From a virus, in IMG/VR virus record IMGVR_UViG_3300034522_000016, positions 1-21,666 of that record: 21,666 bases of DNA; one strand, 5' to 3'. The position numbers and the translations under genes are program-made. Each line of letters begins with the position of its first letter. Positions within the stretch are counted from its first letter, which is position 1. Positions 5,599 to 11,759 of this stretch are shown here, one piece after another. Under the pieces are notes generated by a model, which had not been told where the DNA came from, did no database searches, and was given only the letters and a program-made list of their open reading frames with translations.

Positions 5599-5891
5599 TG
5601 TATAATCCCTCTCAAAGCATCGAGGGGGATTCATCAGTGGGATGTCTCATTGTAAGCGGCATCAAGTTTTACACTCTGGCAGAAGGCGAGTCGTATCCTG
5701 ACCCGCATGCCGATAACCGGTATGTCGGAGCGTATGCCGTATTCCCGTTCGAGGGAAAGTGGGTAGCTCAGAAGTATTTCAGGGGAGGGAGTTGGCGTGA
5801 TATTACCGAGCGCCGATTCAACAATGAAAACGAGGCGTTCAACTTCACATACGAATACGCGTTTCTCCCGGAAAACCGCTACAAATATTAA
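5598..5891 (+). CDS. Hypothetical phage protein, 97 aa (start uncertain)
   Basis: The frame runs from ATG 5598 (TGATG overlap) to a TAA at 5889. An alternative GTG at 5637 has a clear Shine-Dalgarno (GAGGGGG, 5622-5628, eight bases away) and would give 84 residues; the upstream ATG has a poor ribosome site. The protein is aromatic and glycine-rich (ADNRYVGAYAVFPFEGKWVA, then GGSWRDITERRF) and probably all beta. No known domain is recognised. It is the last gene of the accessory chain before the ninB leader. Confidence 0.65.
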   Translation: MYNPSQSIEGDSSVGCLIVSGIKFYTLAEGESYPDPHADNRYVGAYAVFPFEGKWVAQKYFRGGSWRDITERRFNNENEAFNFTYEYAFLPENRYKY

Positions 5892-10301: not shown

Positions 10302-10366
10302 GAAATGAGCCTTTGGAGACGTCAGTTTAGTGCTGGCGAGCCTTCGGTGGGCTGGCGTTTCATTTC
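10302..10366 (+). other. Structured leader upstream of rha
   Basis: GAAATGA (10302-10308) pairs with TCATTTC (10360-10366), with the adjoining GCC (10309-10311) facing GGC (10354-10356). Inside, AGCC (10339-10342) can pair with GGCT (10350-10353). The fold ends 34 bases before the rha start and could affect its expression. An in-frame extension of rha from 10305 passes through this stem and is considered noncoding. Confidence 0.4.
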
Positions 10367-10400
10367 GGCAAAGGTTCATCTCACAAGTACGGAGTACGCG

Positions 10401-10928
10401 ATGAATGATGCAGTCTTAGTTCAAGAGTTCGACTTCTCAAAAATGGTTATGGCAATTCAGGGCAAGGCATTTACGACAAGCCAGAAGATTGCTGATTACT
10501 TCGGCAAGCGCCATGACAACGTATTGAGAAAAATAAGACAAGTAAGAGAAGAATGCCCGCCTGAATTCGCCGCCCTCAATTTTGAGGAGGCTGATTTCAT
10601 TGATAAAAATGGTGAAGCCCAGCCAATGTTCAAGCTGACTAAAGACGGCTATATGCTGGTCGTAATGGGCTTCACTGGTGCGGCGGCCACGCTAATAAAG
10701 GTTCGATACATTCAGGCGTTTAACTGGATGGCAGATCAACTTACGCGCTGGCATGAAATGGGCGAGCAGGCCCAGCACCGACACGCACTGAAGGTTGCGA
10801 AGTCAGAGGTAAAGGCGCGCATAGGGAGCAAGATGATGAATGCCAGAAAGCGAGAGAAGAAACTACTCGCGCTGGAGTTTGATCAGATCCTCTCGTTAAC
10901 ACAGCCGAAGCTGATTTTTACTGACTAG
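10401..10928 (+). CDS. Rha-family phage regulatory protein, 175 aa
   Basis: The N-terminal two thirds match the pRha domain (PF09669): FTTSQKIADYFGKRHDNVLRKIRQV is the conserved DNA-binding-like segment, followed by FKLTKDGYMLVVMGFTGAAATLIKVRYIQAFNWM. Rha proteins are reported to interfere with phage growth in hosts lacking IHF and are seen as regulators. The C terminus is basic and helical (KSEVKARIGSKMMNARKREKK). ATG 10401 is used because the preceding ACGGAG is a ribosome site. P22 carries a comparable rha-like gene between lysis and packaging modules, so the position is expected. Confidence 0.88.
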   Translation: MNDAVLVQEFDFSKMVMAIQGKAFTTSQKIADYFGKRHDNVLRKIRQVREECPPEFAALNFEEADFIDKNGEAQPMFKLTKDGYMLVVMGFTGAAATLIKVRYIQAFNWMADQLTRWHEMGEQAQHRHALKVAKSEVKARIGSKMMNARKREKKLLALEFDQILSLTQPKLIFTD

Positions 10929-10933
10929 CACCT

Positions 10934-10951
10934 AAGGACAGAAATGTCCTT
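10934..10951 (+). other. GAAA-tetraloop hairpin after rha
   Basis: AAGGACA (10934-10940), loop GAAA, TGTCCTT (10945-10951): a perfect 7-bp stem capped by a GNRA tetraloop. No T-run follows (next bases TGAGAGCC), so it is not a standard terminator. It lies six bases after the rha stop codon and may protect the mRNA 3' end. Confidence 0.5.
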
Positions 10952-10974
10952 TGAGAGCCACTTTCACAACGGCT

Positions 10975-11014
10975 TTCATCACAAGGCGCATTTACGAGTG
11001 CGCCTGATGATGAA
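10975..11014 (+). repeat. Hairpin H1 of a matched pair around a mini-gene
   Basis: TTCATCA (10975-10981), CA, AGGCGCA (10984-10990), an 8-base loop, TGCGCCT (10999-11005), GA, TGATGAA (11008-11014). It has two 7-bp stems separated by a CA/GA internal loop. The same design, with the same internal-loop bases and loop length, recurs at 11119-11156. It ends 20 bases before the start of the 27-residue ORF. It has no T-run. Confidence 0.6.
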
Positions 11015-11034
11015 TATCACATGAGGTAAATGGC

Positions 11035-11118
11035 ATGCACTGCACTAACTGTTCTGAAGGCTTCGACAACCCTAGCAAATTCCGTGAAGAGTGGGATAAG
11101 CAAACTACTGACCAGTAG
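11035..11118 (+). CDS. Mini-gene between twin hairpins, 27 aa, CxxC
   Basis: ATG 11035 has a good ribosome site (TGAGGT, 11022-11027, eight-base spacing) and the frame ends at TAG 11116-11118. The peptide starts MHCTNCSEGFDNPSKFREEW: C3-x2-C6 could bind metal or form a disulfide, and the rest is hydrophilic. Hairpin H1 ends just upstream, and hairpin H2 begins on the first base after the stop. A longer overlapping frame from 11030 is thought spurious because it runs antisense through the leftward gene. Function unknown; the ribosome site and flanking structures are the evidence. Confidence 0.5.
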   Translation: MHCTNCSEGFDNPSKFREEWDKQTTDQ

Positions 11119-11156
11119 CCATTACAAAGCGTCTCACCCGGGGCGCTTGATAATGG
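11119..11156 (+). repeat. Hairpin H2 of the matched pair
   Basis: CCATTA (11119-11124), CA, AAGCGTC (11127-11133), an 8-base loop, GGCGCTT (11142-11148, one G-U pair), GA, TAATGG (11151-11156). It has the same geometry and internal-loop bases as H1, although several stem positions differ. It lies between the mini-gene stop and the 3' end of a leftward gene. It has no T-run on either strand. Confidence 0.6.
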
Positions 11157-11177
11157 CATCCATGCCCTTTGGAACTT

Positions 11178-11405
11178 CTAAAGCACAGAAAATATTTGCA
11201 GAAGAAAGCTTATTGCTATCAGTGATAGTCCGCTCGTCTGCCCTATTTTACGGCGCTTATTGCGAGCATTCACGAACGCTACATCATCCTCCCCGCCACA
11301 TTGAGCGAGGGGGTAAGGCTCTATTCCAAACGTGAAGGCGGCAGAAATGAGAGAGCCGGCAAGCCCAACAACAGCAGAAACCAACTGAATATCTGATGGA
11401 GACAT
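11178..11405 (-). CDS. Leftward small membrane protein, 75 aa
   Basis: Transcribed against the late operon. On the minus strand the ATG (11403-11405) is preceded by an AAGGGG ribosome site. There are two hydrophobic helices: residues 8-27 (LVSAVVGLAGSLISAAFTFG) and about 58-75 (GLSLIAISFLLQIFSVL), joined by a polar basic loop (NARNKRRKIGQ). The basic loop should lie in the cytoplasm. Leftward genes at this site in lambdoid phages are often prophage-expressed accessory genes (morons), some altering the host surface or excluding other phages; this is inference here. I do not recognise a family. Confidence 0.6.
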   Translation of the reverse strand: MSPSDIQLVSAVVGLAGSLISAAFTFGIEPYPLAQCGGEDDVAFVNARNKRRKIGQTSGLSLIAISFLLQIFSVL

Positions 11406-11477
11406 AGAAAACCCCTTATCGTGACGTGTGAGAAAGACTTCACTATTTCAATACACCATTTATAAGCTAATGAAAAG

Positions 11478-11495
11478 ATTGACGAATTCGTCAAT
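11478..11495. promoter_or_regulatory. 18-bp perfect palindrome, possible operator
   Basis: ATTGACGAATTCGTCAAT is a perfect palindrome in the gap between the leftward membrane gene and a rightward gene. It carries TTGACG, a good -35-like hexamer, on both strands, but I see no well-spaced -10 for either direction. The only nearby -10-like sequence leftward is TATAAA, 24 bases from the hexamer. It looks like a dimeric repressor site; the protein is unknown. Confidence 0.5.
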
Positions 11496-11555
11496 AGCAC
11501 GATTTGTTTTGGGTCTGTCATTTAACAACGAAAATCACTGAAAAAGGGCAGGTAA

Positions 11556-11759
11556 ATGTCCGACATCTACAAAATCACGATCACCAAAAAATCCAAAGAG
11601 ACATTCACCGGCCTGATGAAGCGTAGTCAGCCTGAAATCATCAATGGGTTTGTCGCACTGGCTAATGATAAAGGCGAGTGGCGTTACTTCAGCCCGGATA
11701 GCGTGGAGCAGTTCCACTTTGTGCCGGTGGCGGAAGAGTTAGTATTAGATGGCGCTTAG
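11556..11759 (+). CDS. Hypothetical phage protein, 67 aa
   Basis: ATG 11556 follows GGGCAGG. The product is a small, mostly beta protein: DIYKITITKKSKETFTGLMK, then PEIINGFVALANDKGEWRYFSPDSVEQFHFVP. The pattern of strands ending in FVPV is like small SH3-like or PH-like beta proteins, but no family can be named. It lies upstream of the small terminase in the same direction, with one leftward gene between. No membrane span or catalytic motif is visible. Confidence 0.65.
   Translation: MSDIYKITITKKSKETFTGLMKRSQPEIINGFVALANDKGEWRYFSPDSVEQFHFVPVAEELVLDGA

Follow-up and report, generated by a model that had tools for sequence, protein, structure and literature searches.

The locus described here lies in a window of 21,666 nucleotides, the whole stretch of viral DNA analysed (IMG/VR record IMGVR_UViG_3300034522_000016), and it occupies the interval between a rha gene and the genes that lead into the terminase. 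Within this interval a 27-residue mini-gene is accompanied by hairpins termed H0, H1 and H2, the coordinates of which are collected in Table 1.

Table 1. Genes, hairpins and predicted processing positions at the locus (window coordinates).
Feature	Position	Strand	Details
Rha-family regulator gene, upstream of H1	10305..10928	+	PHROG 518, Rha-like, E 2.8e-63
H0, extra hairpin behind rha, GAGAGCC-ACTTTCACAAC-GGCTTTC	10953..10977	+	Read in the sequence
H1	10975..11014	+	Lower stem 10975-10981/11008-11014; CA 10982-10983; upper stem 10984-10992/10997-11005; UACG loop; GA 11006-11007
Predicted RNase III cut in H1	between 11008..11009	+	Predicted from the T7 R1.1/R1 ruler, 3 nt past the upper stem
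GAGG ribosome-binding sequence of the mini-gene	11023..11026	+	Sequence
Mini-gene, 27 aa, MHCTNCSEGFDNPSKFREEWDKQTTDQ	11035..11118	+	12 distinct DNA versions in the family
H2	11118..11157	+	Lower stem 11118-11124/11151-11157; CA 11125-11126; upper stem 11127-11135/11140-11148; loop ACCC; GA 11149-11150
Predicted RNase III cut in H2	between 11151..11152	+	Predicted from the T7 ruler
Next clear gene downstream	11556..11759	+	PHROG 6581, unknown function; followed by the small and large terminase genes

H1 and H2 are built to a common design, in which a 7-bp lower stem is followed by a 2x2 CA/GA internal loop, a 9-bp upper stem and a 4-base loop. H1 folds at -23.8 kcal/mol with its flanks (z -5.9) and H2 at -24.4 kcal/mol in a short context (z -5.2), and in both cases none of 200 shuffles folds as well. 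A covariance model built from 24 sequences (R1, a label not to be confused with the T7 site R1) assigns 57.9 bits to H1 and 56.0 bits to H2, which are its only matches in the window; similarly, a hairpin scan of the whole window scores them at 14.3 and 11.0, with the next best candidate at 2.9. A first-pass annotation made from the sequence alone had described the same CA/GA loop in both hairpins and stems that differ, in part by compensating pairs; both points are borne out, and the second is extended by covariation in relatives. The hairpins themselves are real, but the lower stem that it gave as 6-7 bp measures 7 bp in both, and its 7-bp upper stem and 8-base loop become 9 bp and 4 bases, the two inner pairs including a U.G wobble. 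It had rightly placed the end of H1 20 bases before the ATG at 11035, and wrongly the start of H2 on the first base after the stop codon, since the first base of the H2 stem is actually the final G of the mini-gene's stop codon TAG (11116-11118), with a CATTA core from 11120, one base beyond the stop.

The 3' arm of H0 overlaps the first three bases of H1, and given this overlap the two hairpins could compete or stack. H0 is kept behind rha in ES18, SPN9CC, ENT47670, E. coli PCP06021 and Hafnia yong1; in several phages both the loop ACTTTCACAAC and the stem are conserved at this place. As had been noted at the outset, no T-run follows the stems of H1 and H2, and no sense-strand terminator was found in 10850-11600, so intrinsic termination was rejected as their role. 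No Rfam family reaches its gathering score in the window, and near the element only sub-threshold antisense chance matches occur.

The mini-gene, as judged from its relatives, is a real phage microprotein family under coding selection, because third-position changes dominate (297/172/532 differences by codon position among the 12 distinct DNA versions from fetched loci) and a core, GFDNPxKFREEWDKxT, is conserved. The CxxC motif singled out in the first-pass annotation is not a feature of the relatives: it is found in the window copy only, with a CxC in one relative. A family hairpin lies directly 3' of the mini-gene in the window and at two further loci (L074 and L202), and other relatives have no adjacent hairpin; moreover, each hairpin type is found alone elsewhere. 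One relative sits within annotated orf53 of phage Emek. Mini-gene and hairpins are separable, and the earlier proposal of a duplicated structured element that controls or stabilises a small mRNA holds only in part. A structured repeat acting on mRNA agrees with the covariation, the sense-strand fold and the likeness to T7 RNase III sites described below, whereas control of this mini-gene by the pair of hairpins is not well supported, given this separate occurrence. H1 is a 3' element behind rha and H2 is the 3' element of the mini-gene. A 101-codon ORF (window 11030-11335) overlaps the mini-gene in a different frame; its last 60 codons, for which there is no PHROG match, begin with an ATG at 11153 in the 3' arm of H2.

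The hairpin family is real, widespread and apparently undescribed, no description having been found in a literature search that covered few subscription papers. DNA searches return H1 together with H0 in Salmonella and Cronobacter phages and in E. coli prophages; a 70-base query of the element matches 182 phage records, and the hairpin alone matches 1,357 of 5,426 complete E. coli genomes, with a median of one copy and a maximum of four. Pattern scans add many more viral loci, plus prophages across Enterobacterales. A covariance search across lambdoid phages, which the first-pass annotation had suggested, recovered the two-stem CA/GA motif in whole genomes of HK022 (two copies), Sf6 (two) and P22 (one), all in the gap that runs from the lysis genes or rha to the terminase genes, a location that recurs in ES18 and in many enterobacterial prophages. 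The phage lambda genome holds no copy by covariance model or by hairpin scoring, and none was found within the segments searched of the K-12 prophages DLP12 and Qin. A match in a Vibrio phage was rejected as a family member, being an ordinary terminator, and pattern matches in 18 non-enterobacterial genomes, none with all four inner pairs, were set aside as chance behaviour. In many relatives there are two family hairpins, which differ in their stems, are separated by about 150-600 nt and often enclose a small ORF (for example, L005 2731-2771, L010 809-852, L013 13242-13285 and L025 1204-1244), and the annotated orf25 of P22 (40329-40406) begins inside such a hairpin.

Pairing in the family is maintained by compensating change. 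Of the 16 pairs in the model alignment, 14 have changed on both sides, and 96% of cells are paired, a level reached in 0 of 500 shuffles. Since many model members had been chosen by pattern or pairing, the test was repeated without a pairing filter and with the inner positions free, whereupon 81% of inner cells were paired, against a mean of 58% and a maximum of 69% in 2,000 re-deals of the 3' arms. Among 185 distinct hairpins, collected by a scan that required CA/GA (a requirement absent from the covariance search and BLAST), whole upper stems have been exchanged, with compensating changes in the stems around a constant CA/GA internal loop. The loop is of 2 to 20 bases, mostly 4, with UNCG loops in 82 of the 185, and upper pair 8 is a U.G wobble in 154. 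Mismatched pairs comprise 325 G.U and 45 A.C; because G.U so far outnumbers A.C, the mRNA-sense strand is the one that folds. This strand bias bears on the suggestion in the first-pass annotation of a protein-binding DNA site, considered here as a palindrome or cruciform. The palindrome is present, although imperfect; however, the accumulation of G.U rather than A.C on the sense strand, the UNCG loops and the variable arm spacing make such a DNA site highly implausible.

The family is further distinguished by its position behind stop codons. In 66 of 186 upstream ORFs the final base of the stop codon opens the 7-bp stem, and 74 different upstream C-termini end within 12 nt of that point. When one representative is taken per unrelated left flank (n = 101), 55 have a stop codon at positions -4 to -2 relative to the CATYA core, as compared with approximately 5% at other offsets (binomial P ~5e-40). 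H2 obeys this rule, and H1, the stem of which begins 46 nt behind the rha stop with H0 in between, is an exception to it; in E. coli prophages, the RefSeq annotation likewise ends genes at the same spot before the core. The 55 stops are 22 TGA, 21 TAG and 12 TAA, and TGG is absent. Because all three stops are used and TGG is absent, the stop itself seems to be selected, and a stop supplied by the element through a GTRR motif was rejected on the same grounds. Translation starting at the ATG of the 3' arm was also rejected, as downstream frames are no longer than control frames, single cases excepted, and so was read-through past the stop, the frame not being kept open. Among the independent cases in which a stop codon abuts the hairpin, 73% have a G immediately before that codon.

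The closest resemblance is to the RNase III signals of phage T7 (R0.3, R0.5, R1, R1.1, R1.3, R4.7 and R18.5), which, like the family, are sense-strand hairpins between genes, several of them soon after stops, with a lower stem and an upper stem of 9-10 bp mostly starting AAG. At several T7 sites a CA also directly precedes the upper stem and the 3' side of the internal loop contains a GA, and R0.3, R1 and R1.1 share the U.G wobble at pair 8. The positions of the sites other than R1.1 are those reportedly given by Dunn and Studier in 1983, and a TAT^GA pattern at several of these sites is consistent with them. Run on T7, the covariance model gives sense matches at R0.3, R1, R1.1 and R18.5, plus the terminator TE. 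When all 35 stable T7 sense hairpins are scored with the family's upper-stem pair table, RNase III sites take ranks 1, 2, 3, 4, 6, 7, 8 and 11 (Mann-Whitney P ~1e-6), the top four being the proven sites R1.1, R0.3, R18.5 and R1, although part of this match could be generic, since the RNase III sites also rank high in stability among T7 hairpins. R1.1 scores 13.7, against 11.0-15.4 for the best family member in HK022, Sf6, P22 and the window, and T7 R1, TTACAGGTCATC-TGCG-GGTGGCCTGAATAG (TTACA-GGTCATC-TGCG-GGTGGCC-TGAATAG), is close to the family core. From stop codon to upper stem there are 7 nt at R0.5 and R18.5 and 8 nt in the family. In T7-like Pectobacterium phages (Autographiviridae) the family design itself occurs as TATTA-CA-...-GA-TAATA with a UUCG loop; in CB5 the gene in front of it bears a capsid annotation. 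The family nevertheless differs in its symmetric 2x2 CA/GA loop, where T7 loops are larger and uneven, in a CATYA/TRATG lower stem conserved beyond what RNase III alone would demand, and in its hosts, which are lambda-like temperate phages in which cutting is a prediction.

T7 R1.1 is a model RNase III substrate, and cutting protects T7 mRNA (PMC8708148, PMC4858673); the site is cut at nt 5887 and drives the maturation and protection of the message, and a 12-bp stem with a tetraloop is enough for single-strand cutting (PMC8708148). Because the model and the pair table match T7 sites, the stop spacing is alike and R1.1 offers a precedent, we propose, with somewhat better than even confidence, that H1 and H2 are RNase III processing signals of the T7 type, acting in late transcripts of lambda-like and related enterobacterial phages; family hairpins do lie between genes of the late polycistronic mRNA in HK022, Sf6, P22 and E. 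coli prophages. The late transcript would fold into the hairpin (7 bp, CA/GA, 9 bp, short loop), usually immediately after a stop codon, and host RNase III would most likely cut in or next to the internal loop on its 3' side, as at T7 R0.3 to R18.5. After such a cut the 3' end of the upstream message, rha in the case of H1 and the mini-gene in that of H2, would be a stable hairpin, and the downstream message would acquire a new 5' end; the exact cut and any effect on mRNA stability are likewise predictions. If this is right, a class of mRNA processing site so far undescribed would be present in P22, HK022, Sf6 and roughly one in four E. coli genomes, in a region that has received much study, late expression in lambda-like phages would include a post-transcriptional step best known from T7, and there would be a reason for the sharp gene-end edges of gene exchange in these phages.

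Other RNA-level readings draw on the same observations. An uncut hairpin might act on the terminating ribosome or block 3' exonucleases, much as the REP/BIME elements of E. coli, which are imperfect hairpins often just behind stops, a setting reportedly treated by Liang, Rudd and Deutscher in 2015. The exact stop-codon spacing across many unrelated C-termini, the great stability of the hairpins and the G favoured before the stop would suit this reading, yet the likeness singles out the RNase III sites from the other T7 hairpins, and the H1 stem stands well away from the rha stop. Moreover, the family is phage-borne with one to four copies per genome and differs in sequence, as judged by eye, from the REP consensus, and we regard an uncut hairpin as unlikely. 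Recognition of the CA/GA loop and the U.G wobble by an RNA-binding protein, from phage or host, would account for a near-invariant CATYA core and wobble beyond structural need; however, no gene is linked to the hairpin and its neighbours differ freely, so that the protein would probably have to be supplied by the host, and this reading is held to be quite unlikely.

The arrangement of flanking genes is best considered together with a recombination site, in which gene plus hairpin would form an integron-like cassette. Left and right flanks assort freely: among pairs that share the right flank, 14% share the left flank at the hairpin, as compared with 75% and 53% at points 400 nt either side. 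Identity stops at the edges of a 36-nt core, most often exactly at +36 from the left and at 0 from the right, and the same right flank can stand behind hairpin one or, in other phages, behind hairpin two. Against a recombination site, stem sequences vary freely, breakpoints lie at the edges instead of at a single internal step, and a conserved functional element between exchanged genes would yield the same pattern. Integron attC sites are likewise folded elements at the 3' end of exchangeable genes, but their AAC/GTT ends are absent here, where the core ends in CATYA/TRATG and it is the sense strand that folds; to our knowledge, no integrase is associated with the hairpin family. In sum, recombination as the primary function is improbable. 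The suggestion in the first-pass annotation that the hairpins are the ends of a small mobile cassette is accordingly retained in the weak sense that they are joints of gene exchange, and not as regards mobility, neither a site-specific breakpoint nor a recombinase or other mobility enzyme having been noticed.

Returning to processing by RNase III, the 36-nt core, as far as these flanks indicate, is a mosaic joint at which neighbouring genes are exchanged, probably as a by-product of RNA function. The stem variant tracks the left gene more than the right (0.38 vs 0.175, base 0.096), and in our reading the hairpin belongs to the upstream gene as its 3' portion and is retained when neighbours change. 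More tentatively, and with rather little confidence, a stop-anchored RNA element might both process late mRNA and define exchangeable units of gene plus 3' hairpin; if so, an accessory gene ending in a hairpin could enter the lysis-packaging gap with its own mRNA 3' end. The stem-loop behind the coat gene of P22 and Sf6 is likewise a late-gene 3' hairpin, annotated as a putative stem-loop in P22 and as a likely terminator in Sf6, whereas the family has no T-run. In many Enterobacteriaceae phages, tandem short palindromes, TATCCCC...GGGGATAA, lie 3' of the hairpin just before the next gene (right flanks of, for example, L114, L036 and L092). In lambda, the best plus-strand hairpin under the family pair table (27479-27504, L129) has a weak score of 1.4-2.0 and lies near attP, in the region of the RNase III site sib.
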